From a virus: DNA of 44,729 nucleotides. Location of the stretch: IMG/VR virus record IMGVR_UViG_3300034082_002813, positions 1 through 44,729 of that record; one strand, 5' to 3'. Below the pieces are notes generated by a model, which was not told the DNA's origin, searched no databases, and saw nothing but the letters and a program-made list of their open reading frames with translations. Position 1 is the stretch's first letter. Each line of letters begins with the position of its first letter. The translations under genes were made by a program, and so were the position numbers. This document shows positions 1,774 to 44,714 of the stretch, piece by piece.

Positions 1774-2934
1774 ATTAAGAAGATCCAGAGGATCTTTTGT
1801 AGGGTGTCTGGCTAACAAGTATCGCTGAGGCGGCGCATCGGGTAATGGTATGCTTTTGTTTTTCCATATGTCTCGGCGGATAACCTGATGTAGAAAATTT
1901 GTAATGCCGTCAGGTACAAAGTTGCACCACGGACCACTACGCAATTCTTCCATGTCGATGTTGGTTTCATCACACCAGTTGATCAAACGCAAACATTTAT
2001 CTCCCATCTCGACCATCACATGATATATGTTGTTGTCTGCTTCGATGATTCTATTAAAAGGTATTTCTCGAACGTGGCACCATTGCTCAACGGCATTGTA
2101 TAAATCACTGACTGTGGAGACTTCAGTGGTAGCATTTCTACCAATCTCGGCTCCTAGTCTGATTCTGAAAGTCTTAGGAGTCCAATCATTGGTCCAAATT
2201 TCATTTAGTATGTAATCTAGTTCGTGGAATCCTACCATGGTGTATCCGATATATCCTATAGAAACATCTTCCTTCATCATGTTTTCTATGGCAGTGATTT
2301 GTTTTCTTCTCACAGTTTCATTGTTGATATAGTCAGGATGATTTAGTCCTATGTTGGCAGCATGCAGTCCGGCTTCTACACTACGTCTACAGAAATCGCT
2401 GTCGTTGAATCTAATGCCGTTGGTTAGTACACTAACATGAATATCTGGGTGAAGCCCTCGTATAGCAGCCACAGTTTCTGGAAAATCTCGTCTGAGAGTA
2501 CTCTCTGCCCCAGCAAGTATGATACGATGTACACCGTCCGGATCACCCAATGGCATAGTTAGCACTTGTCTAATCAATTCTTCAATAGACGGATCTTTGA
2601 CTTCATTGTCTGGCAAATGATAACAGTGAGGACATTCTAGATTGCATCTATCGCTGCCTTCTATAAGCACTCCGCCATTCATATTGTATTTGGGATTATC
2701 TTGTGTATAGTACAGCCCCGAGTAGAACTCATAATCATTTTCGATCAGGTGATGGCTAATGCCGTGAATAGCACAACTCTTTACCATGTAGACTTTGTTG
2801 TTTTTTTCATATCGCCATGCTGGAATATGCCTGTGACAATGATGACACAAGGACACAGTAGGCAGCAGATGTTTTCCTGCAATAGAGTCTAACATTCTGT
2901 TTATGTTAGAATTATTAAAACCAATTAAGTTCAT
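1765..2934 (-). CDS. radical SAM protein with N-terminal zinc-ribbon-like cysteines (MJ0619-like)
   Basis: The radical SAM motif is RCNLECPHC (C97, C101, C104). An N-terminal block with CHHC (C30, C33), a VYM strand and KSCAIHG (C54) resembles the zinc-binding leader of MJ0619-type radical SAM enzymes, which methylate pterin precursors in archaea. That comparison is from memory and says nothing about the substrate here. The canonical GGEP is replaced by AGAEST at about 141. The gene overlaps the upstream B12-type rSAM gene by 4 nt (ATGA), so the two are translationally coupled and likely act in one pathway. Confidence 0.85.
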   Translation of the reverse strand: MNLIGFNNSNINRMLDSIAGKHLLPTVSLCHHCHRHIPAWRYEKNNKVYMVKSCAIHGISHHLIENDYEFYSGLYYTQDNPKYNMNGGVLIEGSDRCNLECPHCYHLPDNEVKDPSIEELIRQVLTMPLGDPDGVHRIILAGAESTLRRDFPETVAAIRGLHPDIHVSVLTNGIRFNDSDFCRRSVEAGLHAANIGLNHPDYINNETVRRKQITAIENMMKEDVSIGYIGYTMVGFHELDYILNEIWTNDWTPKTFRIRLGAEIGRNATTEVSTVSDLYNAVEQWCHVREIPFNRIIEADNNIYHVMVEMGDKCLRLINWCDETNIDMEELRSGPWCNFVPDGITNFLHQVIRRDIWKNKSIPLPDAPPQRYLLARHPTKDPLDLLNLL

Positions 2935-4856
2935 AAAATTCTTCCGTCTGCTGTTGTGCTGACAATAGGGATAATAGGAATAGTTGCGTGTGCAGCAATT
3001 TTGTTCCCATCATACGTATCTTCAACGTCTTGGTGTTGGTATGGATTGTTAATATTAACAATATCAGTTTTCATAAGAAATTTAGTATACATTTGATCAT
3101 GCATGTGACTCACTGGGTCGTGTTTGTGTATCTCATATTCACTGAATTCATAAACCCATCTATCAACATCTATAATAGAATAGATCTTGTGAGGATAAGT
3201 TTGACTATCGTCTTTCATTAATGCTGTCTGTAAGTCTACAATACTCTGTTCTATTTCTCTAAAACTTTCTCCTACAGTAAAACCTAAGCCAATAAAATGT
3301 TTCTTGTTCTCTATGATATAGTTTAATTTGTATGTTTCGGGCAGAGTTAATGCAACCACATTATGATATTTCTCTTGATTAGGAACTTCACCATGTGTAA
3401 AATAATTTGTCAAGATTTCTTCAACAGAATCTATCAATGCTTTGCCTAGGGTATCTTGTTTGAGATATTGATATAGTCGGTCATAAAAATCTCTATATTC
3501 TATGTTATGCATGTGATATAGATATTTAGAAGTTAACTGGGTAATACCAGAATAATGAAACTGTGCCAACATCCAATGATAGGCTAATGTATCTGCCATG
3601 TCTTGACTGCTCATGGTATTTGTAGCACTAACCATAGCGATGTCTTCCCAGCTGTGATCTTCATCGTCCCATATTCTTTCTTCTTTAGATCTGTACATGT
3701 CTCGTGGGTGTATTAACTTTATCCCGTAACGGGTTTGATATTCTTCACTGGCCATTTCTGAATTGGGAATAACCGTGCATGGGTAGGTTTTTACAGAATC
3801 ATGTTGCCCTAGTTTCATGATAGTGAAAAGCCCGTTGATAAATGTTTCTTTGGTTTCCAAAGGAAGACCTAATACCAGTTCGGTATAGTATCTTATACCG
3901 TGCTTTTGACACAGGGCATAGGCACGTTCTAGATTATTCATTCCCATGTTATTTCTTTTGCTGGCTTCTAGAGTAGGCACGTTCATACTTTGCACAGCCA
4001 TTTCCAATCCATAGGTCCATTTTTGTATTATTTTTTCTATTTCAAAACAAGCTTCATTGAGATTCTTGGCATGATTAAATGTGACTCTACGAATTTTACT
4101 CACAGGATCCTCAATAGCACGTCTAGCCATCCATGCGATCTCAACGTCACGTTCTTTTAATATGCCTGCGTTCGGATCAATAACAAACAACCAATGAATG
4201 TTGTTAGTCACTGCCCAATCCATTTCTTCCTTGGTTCTTTCTAGGTTAAACGTTTTTAATTTATTAAGATAATCTGCACCCCATCCGCAGAATGTGCAGT
4301 GATAAGGACACCCTCGATTGGTTTCGATCATCATATACCAGCTGACATCTGGATTTTCTTTTATAATTTTGTCAAAAAATCCTGCAGTATACGGACTAGG
4401 AAATTCTGCTATATCCTGTTGTCTAGGATTATTCCAATAGCGGTCGATTGGTTCCTTGTTGATATACTTTCTTAAAAGGTCTGCCCATGCCATTTCACCT
4501 TCGCCGAACATAGCAACGTCTATAAAATCATGTATCAGCCAACTTTCATTAATACTAGGGCCTCCGAACACTATCAAACAATCAGGCCATCGTTGTTTGA
4601 TTTTTTTAGCTAACGTGAGATTCCAATTGTGATTCCAAACATAGGTACTAAAGCCTATTACGTCAGGATCTTTTATTTTATCCAAAACATCTTGCTGTCC
4701 TTCACGTTTCCAAATCACATCCGCTAACATAAAATTGTTTTGAATATCACTGAACTGATTAGCGTAGGCCCATATACAGCCTACTGAAAACGGCAGATAG
4801 TGTTCATTGGACGGGCCAGAAGTAATCTCTGCCTGTATTAAATAGACTTTTTTCAT
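2931..4856 (-). CDS. B12-binding-domain-type radical SAM protein
   Basis: The 641-residue protein has an N-terminal Rossmann-like domain with VIGFSTYVWN and VFGGPS, as in the cobalamin-binding domain of B12-dependent radical SAM enzymes, followed by EGE and then RGCPYHCTFCGWG with C183, C187 and C190. I do not see a DxHxxG histidine loop, so if cobalamin binds it would be base-off without that ligand. Such enzymes usually methylate unactivated carbons or rearrange substrates. The C-terminal 250 residues are unassigned. A paralogue lies at 40080-41735. A GATAAATA late box is 6 nt before the ATG, and the gene is coupled to the downstream rSAM gene. Confidence 0.87.
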   Translation of the reverse strand: MKKVYLIQAEITSGPSNEHYLPFSVGCIWAYANQFSDIQNNFMLADVIWKREGQQDVLDKIKDPDVIGFSTYVWNHNWNLTLAKKIKQRWPDCLIVFGGPSINESWLIHDFIDVAMFGEGEMAWADLLRKYINKEPIDRYWNNPRQQDIAEFPSPYTAGFFDKIIKENPDVSWYMMIETNRGCPYHCTFCGWGADYLNKLKTFNLERTKEEMDWAVTNNIHWLFVIDPNAGILKERDVEIAWMARRAIEDPVSKIRRVTFNHAKNLNEACFEIEKIIQKWTYGLEMAVQSMNVPTLEASKRNNMGMNNLERAYALCQKHGIRYYTELVLGLPLETKETFINGLFTIMKLGQHDSVKTYPCTVIPNSEMASEEYQTRYGIKLIHPRDMYRSKEERIWDDEDHSWEDIAMVSATNTMSSQDMADTLAYHWMLAQFHYSGITQLTSKYLYHMHNIEYRDFYDRLYQYLKQDTLGKALIDSVEEILTNYFTHGEVPNQEKYHNVVALTLPETYKLNYIIENKKHFIGLGFTVGESFREIEQSIVDLQTALMKDDSQTYPHKIYSIIDVDRWVYEFSEYEIHKHDPVSHMHDQMYTKFLMKTDIVNINNPYQHQDVEDTYDGNKIAAHATIPIIPIVSTTADGRIL

Positions 4857-4862
4857 TTACGA

Positions 4863-4870
4863 TATTTATC
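4863..4870 (-). promoter_or_regulatory. T4-type late promoter (GATAAATA), leaderless spacing
   Basis: GATAAATA on the minus strand ends 6 nt before the ATG at 4856, so the predicted start of transcription is at or next to the start codon. It forms a divergent pair with the plus-strand box at 4876. Confidence 0.65.
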
Positions 4871-14780: not shown

Positions 14781-15295
14781 ACTGTTTCTCCGGTTGTGCT
14801 TACTTGTAAAATTAATCTAGGACTATGCCCGATATTTATAGCACCATGTATAGCCAGCGGATCTTCGTATTCCCATAGGTCGCCTGCGATATATTTTGTG
14901 ATACTGATATTCTCATACATAAAAATGTGACCCGGTTGCCAATCTTGCAAAGGCATCCAATATCGTTTACCTTTGAGATGTTTTGGACCGTCGCGGTGTA
15001 CGGGAATAAACTGTCCAGGATACATCTTCGTAACCCACCAATCAAACCTTTCATTTAACCATGGCGGTTGTATATCAAAATCTAGACACTTGCTTTCTAA
15101 TAGATAGAAAAAAATCTTGTCTGTGCCGTACACCTTGTACACCTTTCTTTCTGATTCGTGCATAGTAGATCGTTGACCAAGAGCGATTTCTTTATCTATA
15201 TTAAACTCTTTAGGAGCGCCAAATCCCTGTATAGATAAAATATCATCTATCCAAGATGTTTGAATCCAGTCTTGATAATTTCCTAGGTATTTCAT
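14777..15295 (-). CDS. tandem-array dioxygenase-like protein D (MKYxGN family)
   Basis: Starts MKYLGNYQDWIQTSWI. H100 and D102 (PVHRD), RYWMPLQDWQPGHIFMYEN, KYIAGDLWEY, IHGAINIGHSPR with H150 and R160. RYWMPLQDWQ is shared nearly identically with copy C, so C and D are the closest pair and probably arose by a recent tandem duplication. The start overlaps the stop of copy E by ATGA (15292-15295). Confidence 0.82.
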   Translation of the reverse strand: MKYLGNYQDWIQTSWIDDILSIQGFGAPKEFNIDKEIALGQRSTMHESERKVYKVYGTDKIFFYLLESKCLDFDIQPPWLNERFDWWVTKMYPGQFIPVHRDGPKHLKGKRYWMPLQDWQPGHIFMYENISITKYIAGDLWEYEDPLAIHGAINIGHSPRLILQVSTTGETV

Positions 15296-15987
15296 ACAAT
15301 GTCTAAGTTTCTTGAAATTTTGTAATCAGTTATCTGTAGTATTGCTCGAGGACTATGACCTATGTTTACTGCACCATGCCATGCTCCGGGATTTTCAAAC
15401 ATAAAAACATCCCCAGCTCGATAATCAGTAATAACACGATCTTCGACCATAAAAATATGTCCTTTTTCGTAGTTAGTCCAAGGCATCCAATACTTGTGAA
15501 TTTTTATATTGGGATCTGCTTTGTCTATATGCATGGGCATGATATGACCAGGATCCATTTTGCTAAACCACCATGTAATATGTTTATCCTTCCAATCTAA
15601 GAAAGGAGGAGGATCTTCTAGGATATCAAAGCTGACATCAAATTTTTCCATCAATCTAAAATGATCGGCCCAAACATCGTAGCCTGCATCATGATACATG
15701 CCGTATTCTTCGTCTAATTTTCTCTTGGGATCGAGATAGTTGGAATGAATCCTGGCATGCCTTACAACATTATCATTGGAATCCATAGCATCGAGCTCGG
15801 TGATAAGTTGATCGTATTCTTGTTGGGATAGTACTCTATCTACATCCTTGATGTATGATTTAAGTATTGGATTGAATCGTGCTTCGTTGCGTAAACTATG
15901 CTTGGGCATCTCAAACCCGGGATGAGTAATGACTTCATTTAACCATTCAGGTTTGATCCAATTAAAAAAATTACCGATGTATTTCAT
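15292..15987 (-). CDS. tandem-array dioxygenase-like protein E (MKYxGN family)
   Basis: The first gene of the array operon and the longest copy (231 aa). Starts MKYIGNFFNWIKPEWL. It carries an insertion of about 50 residues (about 35-90), then MPMHIDK (H153, D155), KGHIFMVED, DYRAGDVFMF, WHGAVNIGHSPR (H204, R214). A GATAAATA late promoter is 5 nt before the ATG, so the mRNA should be leaderless and should run on through copies D, C, B and A. Confidence 0.83.
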   Translation of the reverse strand: MKYIGNFFNWIKPEWLNEVITHPGFEMPKHSLRNEARFNPILKSYIKDVDRVLSQQEYDQLITELDAMDSNDNVVRHARIHSNYLDPKRKLDEEYGMYHDAGYDVWADHFRLMEKFDVSFDILEDPPPFLDWKDKHITWWFSKMDPGHIMPMHIDKADPNIKIHKYWMPWTNYEKGHIFMVEDRVITDYRAGDVFMFENPGAWHGAVNIGHSPRAILQITDYKISRNLDIV

Positions 15988-15992
15988 AGAAA

Positions 15993-16000
15993 TATTTATC
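15993..16000 (-). promoter_or_regulatory. T4-type late promoter (GATAAATA) for the dioxygenase array
   Basis: GATAAATA is followed by TTTCT and then the ATG at 15987. The expected start of transcription falls on or beside the start codon. Confidence 0.7.
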
Positions 16001-17361: not shown

Positions 17362-17368
17362 TTAAATA
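17362..17368 (+). promoter_or_regulatory. T4-type late promoter (TTAAATA), near-leaderless
   Basis: A TTAAATA box ends 7 nt before the ATG at 17376. No ribosome-binding site fits in the gap. Confidence 0.55.
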
Positions 17369-17375
17369 CCGTAAG

Positions 17376-18458
17376 ATGTTTAAATTTTCAGATCTCCGTC
17401 AAATACACCTAGAAATATCCAATAATTGTCAAGCCAGTTGTCCTATGTGTTCACGCAACATTCACGGTGGTTTAGATAATCCGTTAATCAAAATCAAGGA
17501 TTGGACTCTAGAAGAATTCAAGACCGTGATGTCCCCGGAGGTGCTACGCCAGTTATACGGGTTTTATTTTTGTGGTACATTTGGTGATCCTATTATGAAT
17601 AACAACGTTATTCAAATGTGCGAATACGCCAAGGGGATCAACAGTCAAATACAGATTCATATACACACCAATGGAGGCATGCGCAAACCGCAATGGTGGA
17701 AAGACCTAGCTCTCGCATTACCGGATAATCATTTGGTGGTGTTTGGCATAGATGGATTGGAAGACACCAACCATCTATATAGAGTAGGAGTCAACTACCA
17801 GAATGTTATTGCAAATGCCAAGGCTTTTATAGATGCCGGAGGTAAAGCTCAATGGGCATTTATCAGATTCAAACACAATCAGCATCAAATAGAACAGGCT
17901 AGATTGCTAAGTCAACAGTTGGGATTTGAAAGTTTTCATCATAAAGAAAGTAGCAGATTTATACTAGAACCTGCAGTAAAGGTGGTTGATAAAAAAGGCA
18001 GTATCATGCATTTCGTAGAGCCGCCAACAGACACTCCTATGAAATTCATAGATAGAAAAACCATAGAGAATTATGAAAAAATAGTTGCAGATTCACAAAT
18101 AAAATGTCAAGTACTGGAAACCAAAGAAATTTATATAGATGCTCATGGTGATCTATTTGCATGTTGTTGGTTGGCAAACACTCCATACACACATATATCC
18201 GACGATGCTGCATTTGCTGTTAGGAAAAAAATACAACAACAGCATCAACAAATGGTCGATATTTTAGGAGAAGTAAACACGTTCAAAAGATCAATAAAAA
18301 ACATAGTTGACAGTGATGCTTACCAAACTATATGGAACGATATGTGGTCAGGACAAAACAAAAATATCATATGTTCTAGATCATGTGGCGTTCATCAGGA
18401 AGTAGAGATAAGTCGATGCACGGATCAATTCTTAGAAGTTACAAAATTTGATGTCTAA
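17376..18458 (+). CDS. radical SAM/SPASM-type protein
   Basis: HLEISNNCQASCPMC gives C18, C22 and C25. The GGEP position is CGTFGDP, as in a phage and bacterial radical SAM group. TNGG and FGIDGLEDTNHLYR are typical barrel strands. The C-terminal third has FACCWLAN and IICSRSCGVHQEVEISRC, which supply cysteines for an auxiliary cluster. It is the first of three plus-strand rSAM genes that overlap each other, so three radical SAM enzymes come from one late transcript. Confidence 0.9.
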   Translation: MFKFSDLRQIHLEISNNCQASCPMCSRNIHGGLDNPLIKIKDWTLEEFKTVMSPEVLRQLYGFYFCGTFGDPIMNNNVIQMCEYAKGINSQIQIHIHTNGGMRKPQWWKDLALALPDNHLVVFGIDGLEDTNHLYRVGVNYQNVIANAKAFIDAGGKAQWAFIRFKHNQHQIEQARLLSQQLGFESFHHKESSRFILEPAVKVVDKKGSIMHFVEPPTDTPMKFIDRKTIENYEKIVADSQIKCQVLETKEIYIDAHGDLFACCWLANTPYTHISDDAAFAVRKKIQQQHQQMVDILGEVNTFKRSIKNIVDSDAYQTIWNDMWSGQNKNIICSRSCGVHQEVEISRCTDQFLEVTKFDV

Positions 18459-24764: not shown

Positions 24765-25969
24765 AGCCAGTCTCTGCAGTGCCATGTGGGCTTGGTGAGA
24801 TTGTTGATATCTGTTACAGCAATATTGTGATATAAATCACCATCTACGAATCCAGTAGATGCCCGCAATGAAAAATTAATAGTTGCAGATGAAAAGTAAT
24901 TTTTAATAGTCGTGATCATTGCATTTTCTTTGAACAATCTCTGCTCCAGACTGTATAAAATACTGGTAGCTTCGTAGGCATAGATGTTTGACAAATTTAT
25001 CAAGGTAGGTAATTCTTTATCAAAGTGATCGAACTCATATATATCTGTGAGTAGATCTATTTTCAAAAACACATAAGTGACATTAGAGATGTTCGGTTTA
25101 TGAATTTCCCAGTAGTCTAAGGCCTTTTGATTATAGTCGTAGATCACTACAGTAACAGGCTTTGATTTATCAATCATGGATTGCCACCACGATCCGCTGG
25201 CCGGTACAAAAAATTGTTCAAACACTTGATCTTGAAAGTTAACATTTTCGGTATGATCAGTATGCACAAACTCTGTTAAACAATAATTGAATCTTTGATA
25301 TGCCCATTGTATATGATTTATAAATTCTTGTTGGTTTTCTGGGTAATAATGTTTTTTATGTTGACGTATATTATTGTCAAATACTACCACAGGAATATCA
25401 CAATCGAATGCTACACTTAATATATTATGTCCATGCATCTTGTGGTTGTAGTCTGTTTCATCTTCACCACCAGATATCCGCATTGGGGTATAATCATCGT
25501 GTATATTATCATTGCTGCGCCAGGGTTTTGTTTTGCGGTGTTTAACCCCTAGCTGTTGTTTTCCTATCCGAGGGCTTCCTAGTTGTTGATATATGTCTAG
25601 GTTGATGTAGTAGCATTGATGGTGCAGTTCATAATATGCATCTGCTCGATCTAATATGTGGCCTGCAATAAACACTTTTTCTTTATGTAGTTTTTCTATC
25701 TCATTATAGAAACTATCACCGTTGATAAATTCTGTACCTGTAGAGAATATCACAGCAGCTTGATATTGTTGATCACAGGCCATCTGTAACAATATATCCT
25801 CGTCTTGTCCTTGTAATATATCGTATCCTTTTGAAAATGTATTCGAGATAGTGAAGTCGGATATATTTTTAATCAGTTCTTTTGACCATTCACTGGTATA
25901 GATATGTGTATTATCAACTATACAAAATACTATAGGTTTCTTAAAATTCTGAAATTTAATTACGTTCAT
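24761..25969 (-). CDS. protein of unknown function with possible C-terminal Rossmann fold
   Basis: A 402-residue protein. The N-terminal half has FCIVDNTHIY, AAVIFSTGTEF and FIAGHILDRADAYYELHHQCYYINL, a pattern I have seen only in uncharacterised phage proteins. The C-terminal half has VTVVIYDYNQKALDYW and LINLSNIYAYEATSI, which look like motif II and a post-motif strand of methyltransferase-type Rossmann domains, though no glycine motif is clear. The ATG at 25969 is chosen over a TTG at 25993. It is coupled to the QueC-like gene by ATGA, so the two probably form a functional pair. Confidence 0.75.
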   Translation of the reverse strand: MNVIKFQNFKKPIVFCIVDNTHIYTSEWSKELIKNISDFTISNTFSKGYDILQGQDEDILLQMACDQQYQAAVIFSTGTEFINGDSFYNEIEKLHKEKVFIAGHILDRADAYYELHHQCYYINLDIYQQLGSPRIGKQQLGVKHRKTKPWRSNDNIHDDYTPMRISGGEDETDYNHKMHGHNILSVAFDCDIPVVVFDNNIRQHKKHYYPENQQEFINHIQWAYQRFNYCLTEFVHTDHTENVNFQDQVFEQFFVPASGSWWQSMIDKSKPVTVVIYDYNQKALDYWEIHKPNISNVTYVFLKIDLLTDIYEFDHFDKELPTLINLSNIYAYEATSILYSLEQRLFKENAMITTIKNYFSSATINFSLRASTGFVDGDLYHNIAVTDINNLTKPTWHCRDWL

Positions 25970-26615
25970 TTTGTTTATTATAACTTCGAACAACTAATTC
26001 TGCAAATTCTTTTTTCTTGTCACCTATAACACAATGAGCAATCATATGCATTCTAGGTTGATCACTGTGATTTATGACTGAATGTGTATTTGTGATATTA
26101 ACAATGAATGCTTTCCCTTTAGAGAAAGGCACAGTACCGTATCCCTCTAACTGCATATTGCAATCTTTGGGATGTGTTATCGCTACGTTGATCGGAATCA
26201 TGTGATCCATCATGTCGAATTCTGTGTTCTTTACTCCCCCTGGGGAATCGTTGTGAGCCGCTATATGACCACCTGCTGCTAACTCCATGAATCGCAATCT
26301 GGCAAATCTTTCAGTGGGAAACGCTTTCCAAAACTCAGTGATACAAGGAGTGAGATGTGACACCTTGGTCCATCGATAAATTAAATCTGATTCAACATTG
26401 TCATACCGAGACCAATGACCAGTTTTATCCCAATCTATACCGTGAAGACAACAGCTACGCCAACCTTCGTGACCGTCACCTTCTCGGTGTTCTACCAAAA
26501 ATGGTTCAGCTTGTGCTGCTTCTTGCTGCCATACATCCAGATCGAACTCGATGTCGAGCTCTATCCAACCGATGGGTTTTCTAAGTATTTCTGTTGCTTG
26601 ATCTATAATGTCCAT
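25956..26615 (-). CDS. aspartyl/asparaginyl hydroxylase-like 2OG-Fe(II) protein
   Basis: RFMELAAGGHIAAHNDSPGG gives H-x-D, INVAITHPKDCNMQLEGYGTVPF and GKAFIVNITNTHSVINHSDQPRMHMIAHCVIG give the second histidine and arginine of the Asp/Asn hydroxylase pattern. Its 219 residues fit. It is the first gene of the operon that continues with the 402-aa protein, QueC-like protein, twitch rSAM, two further hydroxylases and an rSAM. A TATAAATA late box lies only 4 nt before the ATG, so the transcript should be leaderless. Confidence 0.83.
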   Translation of the reverse strand: MDIIDQATEILRKPIGWIELDIEFDLDVWQQEAAQAEPFLVEHREGDGHEGWRSCCLHGIDWDKTGHWSRYDNVESDLIYRWTKVSHLTPCITEFWKAFPTERFARLRFMELAAGGHIAAHNDSPGGVKNTEFDMMDHMIPINVAITHPKDCNMQLEGYGTVPFSKGKAFIVNITNTHSVINHSDQPRMHMIAHCVIGDKKKEFAELVVRSYNKQNERN

Positions 26616-26619
26616 GAAA

Positions 26620-26627
26620 TATTTATA
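26620..26627 (-). promoter_or_regulatory. T4-type late promoter (TATAAATA), leaderless spacing
   Basis: A perfect TATAAATA box on the minus strand, 4 nt from the ATG at 26615. Divergent with the plus-strand box at 26643. Confidence 0.72.
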
Positions 26628-31828: not shown

Positions 31829-31835
31829 GTAAATA
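31829..31835 (+). promoter_or_regulatory. T4-type late promoter (GTAAATA), near-leaderless
   Basis: A GTAAATA box 7 nt before the ATG at 31843, with no ribosome-binding site between. Confidence 0.5.
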
Positions 31836-31842
31836 ATTTTCT

Positions 31843-32457
31843 ATGCACAGCAGATACGATTTAAAAGACACGCACATAGTTGTGTACTATCAATCTAACA
31901 ATGAGTTTGAACAGGTTAGAAAACAATGCCTTGAGGAAAATAATTGGCTCAGGCACAATTATACCCAGGACAATTTAAGAATAGAAGATCACCACGGGTA
32001 TGGTGTGGTGTATCAAGTTAGTACAGGAAAGCCCATGGTTATGGGTGGAGTTTTCAATGATGAAAGATATCCGTCCAATGTGGCTAAAATGATCAATCGT
32101 CTGTATACTTTTCCCGAGTTTCGCATGACACATACTGATATGACTGATGGGTTTAGAGTAACCTGTAGTTTGATTGATAGACTCATCGCAGATAACAGCT
32201 TCGAATGTTATTTGATAACCATGCAGAACAGGCCAAGAGGTGGAAAACGTTGGTGGGATATATGGAAGCAGCACATGGACACGGCCAGTGATAATCAATG
32301 GCAGCACGGACTTGGATATATACAAACCTGTCCATGGCCTGTGCAAAAATGTTGGCAAAATTTTGTCTATAGAAATATCAGTGAACGTGCTTTTGAAAAT
32401 TGGAATCCTACTGTTATCAATGATCAAGAATGGAATATGCTGCCGGAGGGCAAATGA
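31843..32457 (+). CDS. protein of unknown function (204 aa)
   Basis: A soluble protein with a strand-rich N-terminal half (HIVVYYQSNNEFEQVR, YGVVYQVSTGKPMVMGGVFND) that vaguely recalls an acyltransferase-type fold, and a tryptophan-rich C-terminal half (RWWDIW, CPWPVQKCWQNF). I do not recognise the family. Its stop codon overlaps the start of the desaturase gene (ATGA), so a role in the same lipid step is possible. Confidence 0.65.
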   Translation: MHSRYDLKDTHIVVYYQSNNEFEQVRKQCLEENNWLRHNYTQDNLRIEDHHGYGVVYQVSTGKPMVMGGVFNDERYPSNVAKMINRLYTFPEFRMTHTDMTDGFRVTCSLIDRLIADNSFECYLITMQNRPRGGKRWWDIWKQHMDTASDNQWQHGLGYIQTCPWPVQKCWQNFVYRNISERAFENWNPTVINDQEWNMLPEGK

Positions 32458-37937: not shown

Positions 37938-38156
37938 TTACAATCTATATGTCACACGACCTTTGGTAAGATCGTATGGGCTGACTTCAATTTTAACACG
38001 ATCGCCTAAGATAATTTTTATCTTGTGCTGTTTTAATTTACCGCTGGTATAGCAGGTAAGAATGTTGGGCAGATTATCTACCTTGACCCTGAACATGTTG
38101 CCAGGCAATACTTCTTCAACTGCACCAGTTAATTCTATAAGATCACTTTTTGGCAT
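37938..38156 (-). CDS. infA: translation initiation factor IF-1
   Basis: A 72-residue protein, exactly the normal IF-1 length, aligning end to end with bacterial IF-1: [23 protein letters not shown], then [35 protein letters not shown]. The OB-fold landmarks MFRV, SGK, GD-V and PYDLxKGR are all present. IF-1 binds the ribosomal A site and helps IF-2 and IF-3 select the initiator tRNA. It overlaps the SprT-like gene by 14 nt and is expressed from the sigma70 promoter at 38628. A phage copy together with an initiator-type tRNA (42105) suggests control of host translation initiation. Confidence 0.95.
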
Positions 38157-38657: not shown

Positions 38658-38731
38658 TGGTGCTCCAACCAAGAATCGAACTTGAAATACATCCTTACCA
38701 AGGATGCGTTATGCCATTTAACTATAGGAGC
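38658..38731 (-). tRNA. tRNA-Thr (anticodon GGT)
   Basis: Acceptor GCTCCTA pairs with TTGGAGC with one G-U. The anticodon arm CATCC-TTGGTAA-GGATG gives GGT, the T arm has TTCGATT, and CCA is encoded at 38658-38660. Its 5' end overlaps the last 14 nt of the SGNH-like gene. Confidence 0.93.
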
Positions 38732-39989: not shown

Positions 39990-40063
39990 TGGAGCGGGAT
40001 AAGAGAATCGAACTCTTGACCGAAGATTGGAAATCTGCTGTTTTACCATTAAACTAATCCCGC
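39990..40063 (-). tRNA. tRNA-Gly (anticodon TCC)
   Basis: Acceptor GCGGGAT pairs 7 of 7 with ATCCCGC. The anticodon loop TTTCCAA gives TCC, with one mismatch in the anticodon stem. The T arm is AAGAG-TTCGATT-CTCTT, and CCA is encoded at 39990-39992. Confidence 0.93.
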
Positions 40064-41773: not shown

Positions 41774-41850
41774 TGGTCGGAGTACAAGGATTCGAACCTT
41801 GGACCCCCTGGTCCCAAACCAGGTGCGCTACCAGACTGCGCCACACTCCG
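41774..41850 (-). tRNA. tRNA-Pro (anticodon TGG)
   Basis: Acceptor CGGAGTG pairs with TACTCCG with one G-U. The anticodon arm CCTGG-TTTGGGA-CCAGG gives TGG. The T arm is CAAGG-TTCGAAT-CCTTG, and CCA is encoded. Confidence 0.95.
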
Positions 41851-42101: not shown

Positions 42102-42175
42102 TGGTTGCGGGACCTGGAATCGAACCAGGGACTGGAGCTTATGAGACTCCTGAGATGCCGCTTCTCCATCCCGCG
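42102..42175 (-). tRNA. initiator-type tRNA-Met (anticodon CAT)
   Basis: The gene starts CGCGGGATGGAG and ends CCCGCAACCA, as in E. coli tRNA-fMet. The first acceptor pair is a C1-A72 mismatch, the hallmark that allows formylation. The anticodon loop CTCATAA is identical to the fMet loop. The anticodon stem is GGAGT/GCTCC and lacks the three consecutive G-C pairs of bacterial initiators. CCA is encoded. Elongator Met or Ile2 (lysidine) is less likely given C1-A72. Confidence 0.88.
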
Positions 42176-43606: not shown

Positions 43607-43635
43607 ATTATAACATATGACAACATGTCTGTCAA
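43607..43635 (-). promoter_or_regulatory. consensus sigma70 promoter (TTGACA-17-TATAAT)
   Basis: On the minus strand TTGACA (43630-43635) and TATAAT (43607-43612) are 17 bp apart, matching both consensus boxes fully. It reads toward the coiled-coil gene and the structured RNA/tRNA region beyond. Confidence 0.9.
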
Positions 43636-43651: not shown

Positions 43652-43725
43652 TGGTGCCCCGTGACAGAATCGAACTGCCAATACCTGATTACAAAACAGG
43701 TGTTATGCCACTTAACTAACAGGGC
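43652..43725 (-). tRNA. tRNA-Thr (anticodon TGT)
   Basis: Acceptor GCCCTGT pairs with ACGGGGC with one G-U. The anticodon loop TTTGTAA gives TGT. The T arm has TTCGATT with one mismatch, and CCA is encoded. Together with tRNA-Thr(GGT) it covers all threonine codons. Confidence 0.9.
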
Positions 43726-43741
43726 CTACTATTACTTATCT

Positions 43742-43817
43742 TGGTGGAGGATAACGGATTCGAACCGTTTGCTCCTGGTTGCAAACCAGGTGTGTTAGCC
43801 AAGTATACCAATCCCCC
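43742..43817 (-). tRNA. tRNA-Ala (anticodon TGC)
   Basis: Acceptor GGGGGAT pairs with ATCCTCC and contains the G3-U70 pair that defines alanine tRNAs. The anticodon arm CCTGG-TTTGCAA-CCAGG gives TGC. The T arm is AACGG-TTCGAAT-CCGTT, and CCA is encoded. Confidence 0.95.
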
Positions 43818-44050: not shown

Positions 44051-44142
44051 TGGTGGAAGGTGAGGGATTCGAACCCTCGGGGCACCTTACGGCACCCCGC
44101 AGTTTAGCAAACTGCTGATTTAAGCCACTCATCCAACCTTCC
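44051..44142 (-). tRNA. tRNA-Ser (anticodon GCT)
   Basis: Acceptor GGAAGGT pairs 7 of 7 with ACCTTCC. The anticodon arm GCAGT-TTGCTAA-ACTGC gives GCT. A long variable arm (GGGGTGCC/GGTGCCCC type) and a T arm with TTCGAAT complete a class II serine tRNA. CCA is encoded. Confidence 0.95.
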
Positions 44143-44148
44143 TTGTAC

Positions 44149-44222
44149 TGGTACCTCGTGACAGGATCGAACTGCCGTCTCTGCTGTGTAAAAGCAGGGC
44201 CCTACCATTAGACGAACGAGGC
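44149..44222 (-). tRNA. tRNA-Val (anticodon TAC)
   Basis: Acceptor GCCTCGT pairs with ACGAGGT with a terminal G-U. The anticodon arm CTGCT-TTTACAC-AGCAG gives TAC. The T arm has TTCGATC, and CCA is encoded. Its 5' end lies 2 nt from structured element 3. Confidence 0.93.
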
Positions 44223-44642: not shown

Positions 44643-44714
44643 AAACGTTAGAAGGAGTTGAACCCTCAGCCGTCTCCTTAACAGGGAGATGCACTACCAT
44701 TGTGCTATAACTGA
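44643..44714 (-). tRNA. tRNA-Asn (anticodon GTT), odd acceptor stem
   Basis: The anticodon arm TCTCC-CTGTTAA-GGAGA gives GTT. The D arm GCAC/GTGC with AATGGTA and the T arm GAGGG-TTCAACT-CCTTC are good. Only about four of seven acceptor pairs form, and the 3' end is not followed by CCA, unlike every other tRNA here. It may need 3' trimming and CCA addition, or may be decaying. Confidence 0.65.

Follow-up and report, generated by a model that had tools for sequence, protein, structure and literature searches.

Initiation factors IF1 and IF3 have already been reported in huge phages (Al-Shayeb 2020, PMC7162821). The phage-encoded IF1 of that paper occurs with tRNAs and S21 and is proposed to redirect host translation. 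IF-1 homologues were also present in the large Lak phages, Sinorhizobium phage Phosso, and Bacteroides phage DAC16; these fell outside the T4-like clade described here in the IF-1 tree, were 42% to 48% identical, and had other gene neighbourhoods. Within this clade, at least 293 IMG/VR stretches encoded an IF-1, the ones listed being 78% to 100% identical (76% to 100% with a second query). A phage IF-1 gene is by itself not new, and the statement in the original prediction that viral translation factors are rare was not supported, given the 2020 report and these numbers.

The window, that is, the whole 44,729-nt stretch of DNA analysed here, is an IMG/VR record and a fragment without a gp55-type sigma match of its own. 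As shown in the table, it contained an infA homologue, whose product matched the infA equivalog TIGR00008 over the entire model (1–69 of 69; 92.7 bits versus a cut-off of 61.15, E = 1e-26) and PF01176 with 66.6 bits. Solved IF-1 structures aligned to it across the full length, the best being 6c00 (E = 5e-20). On these alignments, chance resemblance to IF-1 is excluded. The coordinates agreed exactly with those first given, the minus strand being a detail absent from the original prediction. An AlphaFold2 model, built from an alignment containing phage and cellular IF-1 homologues, had a five-stranded OB fold (pLDDT 84, pTM 0.67), and the top matches in a PDB structure search with this model were all IF-1, with TM 0.91 and rmsd 1.1 Å for 30S-bound E. 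coli IF1 (9fco) and TM 0.91 for T. thermophilus IF1 in 1hr0.

Two arginines, R67 and R71 in phage numbering, were invariant in the 54 distinct clade sequences. They correspond to E. coli R66 and R70 (counted with Met; published as Arg64/65 and Arg69), and Arg64/65 and Arg69 are reported to contact the 30S subunit or to be required for binding (PMC4611024). The equivalent of E. coli R46, phage position 47, was K or R in 53 of the 54, and the G-K/R-L-K loop (G39, K/R40, L41, and K42) was retained. Thus, the predicted full-length IF-1 with ribosome-contacting residues was borne out by the whole-model score and by the alignment, in which no loss of these residues was observed. In 308 clade pairs with a usable synonymous distance, the median dN/dS was 0.069 and the maximum 0.22, values indicating strong purifying selection on the phage IF-1 clade. 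Likeness to bacterial IF-1 extends to the full length, the OB fold, and the basic contact residues, with 45% to 58% identity among the cellular matches listed. Unlike bacterial IF-1, the clade possesses a one-residue insertion in the loop between strands 2 and 3, K in place of Y44, a fixed C-Y for A-H before the loop, and a shortened C-terminus; it is also phage-encoded, with a presumably early sigma-70 promoter and an adjoining tRNA array.

Gene order around IF-1 was common to the window and related contigs. One syntenic relative, 281,658 bp long, encoded a portal protein (phrog_213, E = 1.6e-109), a tail sheath, a gp55-type late sigma factor (phrog_234, E = 8e-26), and one copy of IF-1, and the window itself had tail-fibre and phage-type genes. 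The best cellular IF-1s were at most 58% identical to the clade among the matches listed by a short-pattern scan. In the IF-1 tree (72 columns, one inner branch alone being strongly supported), a branch with SH-aLRT 84 separated the 26 clade representatives from every cellular row. Bacterial contamination does occur among phage records: two "Acinetobacter phage" records contain infA in a chromosomal neighbourhood. That the window is likewise a bacterial fragment carrying an ordinary infA is hardly credible and was rejected on the synteny with phage records, their portal, sheath, and sigma genes, the tail-fibre and phage-type genes of the window, and the distinct IF-1 clade; phage origin, as first proposed, is thereby upheld. 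The infA records of Acinetobacter phage MD-2021a (L181, CAKLQH020000005.1 57666–67869), with truA, leuB-D, and fimV as neighbours, appear to be bacterial contaminants among the phage records.

No IF-1 was found in 13 fragments of portal-sampled relatives, among which the gene is either patchy or missed. Ribosomal protein S21 was found in 9 of 16 large records searched (G002, G003, G004, G007, G032, G033, G788, G789, and G790). Nt 1–34000 of the window formed a cassette dense in 2OG-Fe(II) oxygenase-like and radical SAM genes with few Shine-Dalgarno (SD) motifs, which also held a class-III aminotransferase and a fatty acid desaturase.

Features of the window, grouped by IF-1 operon, tRNA array, and late promoters
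Feature	Position (nt)	Strand	Remarks
Sigma-70 promoter TTGACA-17-TATAAT	38656-38628	minus	Perfect, 12/12; upstream of IF-1 operon
Operon gene 1, putative HExxH metallopeptidase, 153 aa	38143..38604	minus	HEMVH motif read from sequence; AGGAG upstream
IF-1 (infA homologue), 72 aa	37938..38156	minus	ATG start; profile and structure matches
Operon gene 3, dual-specificity/tyrosine phosphatase-like, 186 aa	37367..37927	minus	AGGAG upstream
Operon gene 4, 66 aa	37170..37370	minus	No family match in profile searches
Intrinsic-terminator-like hairpin	37151-37126	minus	11 pairs and T-run; fits operon end
tRNA-Thr(GGU)	38658..38731	minus	Last of array before IF-1 operon
tRNA-Gly(UCC)	39990..40063	minus
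tRNA-Pro(UGG)	41774..41850	minus
Initiator tRNA (CAU)	42102..42175	minus	C1xA72; CUCAUAA loop; stem 29-31:39-41 AGU:GCU
Second sigma-70 promoter	43607..43635	minus	Perfect, 12/12; TG before -10; inside tRNA array, upstream of initiator tRNA
tRNA-Thr	43652-43725	minus
tRNA-Ala	43742-43817	minus
tRNA-Ser	44051-44142	minus
tRNA-Val	44149-44222	minus
Rfam tRNA match	44647-44711	minus
TAAATA, T4-type late promoter core	4863..4868	minus	Gene 2931-4856 (predicted leaderless): 6 nt from core to ATG
TAAATA	15993..15998	minus	Gene 15292-15987 (predicted leaderless): 5 nt from core to ATG
TAAATA	17363..17368	plus	Gene 17376-18458: 7 nt from core to ATG
TATAAATA core	26620..26625	minus	Gene 25956-26615: 4 nt from core to ATG
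TAAATA	31830..31835	plus	Gene 31843-32457: 7 nt from core to ATG

IF-1 was the second gene of its operon, overlapping the end of the metallopeptidase gene by 14 nt and lacking an SD sequence of its own. The consensus promoter initially noted for this operon withstood closer analysis: it matched at 12 of 12 positions, was located 24 nt upstream of the ATG of the first gene (38604), and was one of 2 perfect TTGACA-17-TATAAT sites in the window, compared with 0.05 per shuffled window. Of 91 related loci, 72 had a perfect promoter in the 1.5 kb preceding IF-1. Distances from promoter to IF-1 ranged from 34 to more than 1,000 nt, and since they shift as the intervening genes change, the promoter is retained but its surroundings are not. 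In loci L038, L064, and L195, the -10 box ended 5 to 6 nt upstream of the IF-1 ATG; thus, the IF-1 mRNA itself is predicted to be leaderless in these three.

A tRNA array, with up to 27 tRNAs (in L175), preceded IF-1. The initiator tRNA of the window, with the 3′ end CCCGCA-ACCA, had the bacterial initiator marks (C1xA72 mismatch, CAU anticodon, and CUCAUAA loop), while the three G-C pairs at 29-31:39-41 were absent, being replaced by AGU:GCU. Judged by these bases, the phage tRNA resembles an initiator tRNA in other features without the three G-C element. The stems of 66 clade initiator tRNAs were AGU:GCU (53), GGU:GCC (11), and AGG:CCU (2), with no GGG:CCC; U31-G39 was found in 64 of them (loci L002-L081 and L182-L208), and the G30-C40 pair, the central pair contacted by A1339 (PMC11497404), was kept in all. 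The U31 stem pattern was detected in none of 385 alphaproteobacterial and none of 369 gammaproteobacterial genomes (0/754 in total). An ordinary-stem control pattern was detected in 32 of 58 alphaproteobacterial genomes, all AGG:CCU, and in 52 of 56 gammaproteobacterial genomes, nearly all GGG:CCC; the sampled Alphaproteobacteria, with AGG:CCU, are likewise without the three G-C pairs. The A29-U41 pair and the nearest IF-1s give a hint of an alphaproteobacterial host; in the 72-column IF-1 tree, Clostridia rows adjoined the phage clade.

Among 47 loci with enough upstream sequence, the initiator tRNA was located within 8 kb of IF-1 in 34, and 13 had none nearby. The U31-G39 stem type was widespread in other viral contigs, including ones in which no IF-1 was seen; Phosso had a GGU:ACC variant; and a DNA similarity search with the initiator tRNA against cultured phages gave two partial matches only. 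A link between IF-1 and the unusual stem across phages was considered and rejected, as IF-1 was present in 3 of the first 4 large contigs with a U31-stem initiator tRNA and then in 1 of 11 more (4/15), versus 4 of 20 with the ordinary stem. Outside the clade, to judge from these contigs, the initiator tRNA shows no tie to IF-1. Near IF-1, two uncultured phages (L177 6558 and L180 8613; 595 and 484 kb) had a tRNA with a CUA anticodon, called Pyl, which is possibly an amber suppressor in a recoded genome.

In T4, the late promoter motif lies at about -13 to -6. T4 late transcription, which involves gp55 and TATAAATA, has its likeness here in the gp55-type sigma factor of the relatives and in the TAAATA core. 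However, T4 spacing between motif and ATG peaks at 27 to 28 nt, giving leadered mRNAs, whereas that of the phage clade peaks at 5 nt, the distance observed for late genes and LEADERLESSNESS in the window and the 280-kb relative. TAAATA was found within 45 nt of 11 of the 21 operon-first genes in the window, compared with 1.7% of random positions. The plain TATAAATA count in the window was not enriched (5 versus 7.3 in shuffles); position relative to gene starts alone is informative. In the window and the 280-kb relative, TAAATA was located 4 to 7 nt before 22 of 301 gene starts and before 19 of 11,682 other ATGs. With T4 promoter geometry, such spacing would set the mRNA 5′ end at the ATG, so that such late mRNAs of these phages are predicted to be leaderless, in line with what had been proposed for the window.

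Spacing of 4 to 7 nt was shared by 41 of 613 genes in IF-1-bearing records, 2 of 441 in unrelated large records without IF-1, none of 45 in T4, and none of 21 in P-SSM2; only about 7% of genes show it. It was equally common (19/301) in portal-related fragments in which no IF-1 was seen. Leaderless-type spacing is therefore a trait of the phage family, and shared ancestry confounds any link between it and IF-1. In Phosso (PV764938.1, 222719–223072), the gp55-like sigma match fell in a frame of 602 codons interrupted by a single TAA.

Translation of leaderless mRNA in vitro is stimulated by IF1 and IF2 and inhibited by IF3 at higher levels, and extra initiator tRNA boosts leaderless translation strongly and canonical translation mildly (PMC9031893); the IF1 effect is one obtained in vitro with E. 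coli. IF3 was searched for in 11 records and none was found, an absence that may be only apparent because the records are fragments. The IF-1 operon, placed directly behind the phage tRNA array with its initiator tRNA, would be transcribed early by the host sigma-70 RNA polymerase, and the phage IF-1 would bind in the A site of host 30S subunits in the same way as host IF1. Acting with the additional initiator tRNA and with no phage IF3 present, it would raise initiation capacity, the net effect being to help translation of leaderless late mRNAs from T4-type promoters 4 to 7 nt before the ATG. Such aid is likely in so far as IF1 and initiator tRNA are both reported to favour leaderless mRNA in vitro. 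The explanation draws on homology, predicted fold, residue conservation, and purifying selection, as well as on the promoter, synteny, initiator tRNA, and promoter spacing; we infer early timing, 30S binding, leaderless transcripts, and a preference for phage mRNA. As a whole, namely that a large T4-like phage clade carries a working bacterial-type IF-1 gene that, with the initiator tRNA, raises initiation and probably favours the phage's leaderless late mRNAs, it is put forward tentatively, at somewhat below an even chance, with a mechanism that is plausible but unproven. The original idea that a phage IF-1 shifts start-site choice toward phage messages is plausible in that its direction fits the published in vitro data. 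A more specific version, in which early IF-1 and the U31-G39 initiator tRNA act as an initiation kit that retunes host ribosomes, away from SD-led mRNAs (those of the host and early ones) and towards the leaderless late mRNAs of the phage, appears rather unlikely.

IF-1 may instead be a plain supplement, which only sustains initiation during the shutdown of host expression and has no preference for a class of mRNA. This possibility, nearly as likely as the preferred explanation, is consistent with the general translation supplements around IF-1, namely the many array tRNAs and S21, with the excess of SD-led over leaderless-type genes, and with other IF-1 phages (Lak and Bacteroides phages), which are without nearby tRNA arrays and the initiator pattern. 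On the other hand, IF1 and initiator tRNA without IF3 are the very set reported to favour leaderless mRNA (PMC9031893), and leaderless-type late starts are enriched in the phage family.

Evasion of host defence, in which phage initiation parts stand in for host parts attacked by toxins or nucleases, is improbable. An initiator tRNA with G39 would escape VapC-type cleavage, and the phage IF-1 would replace a targeted or depleted host factor. VapC cleaves tRNAfMet between A38 and C39 (PMC4105405), the phage base at position 39 is G, and the U31-G39 pair prevails in the clade initiator tRNAs but was absent from the proteobacterial genomes searched; that loop mutations let phage tRNAs evade anticodon nucleases is a published idea (PMC10264068). 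This argument, however, bears on the tRNA and not on IF-1. We know of no host defence aimed at IF1. Still less probable is a role off the ribosome, in which the protein would not be an initiation factor but would chaperone RNA or act in transcription antitermination. The fold of IF1 is the S1/cold-shock OB fold, and E. coli IF1 has RNA chaperone and transcription antiterminator activities, but the 30S-contact residues are kept under strong selection and the family matched, TIGR00008, is an equivalog.

In the accessible literature, neither a functional test nor a stated target mRNA was found for phage IF1, and no description was found in the open-access literature of a T4-like clade with an early promoter, a non-canonical initiator tRNA, and leaderless late genes, priority being uncertain. 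The clade offers a concrete and testable setting, with a conserved and presumably early IF-1, an unusual initiator tRNA, no IF3 found, and late promoters from which leaderless mRNAs are predicted. If the preferred mechanism is true, it would represent viral takeover of start-site choice via the very machinery of initiation, and would provide evidence from nature that the dosage of IF1 and initiator tRNA controls leaderless translation; even if IF-1 is a mere supplement, the initiator tRNA informs which parts of the conserved three G-C pairs matter. Whereas the huge-phage report (PMC7162821) gives IF1 as one of many listed factors, a single widespread T4-like clade is defined here, and so are its operon, its promoter, the neighbouring initiator tRNA, and the predicted leaderless late mRNAs.
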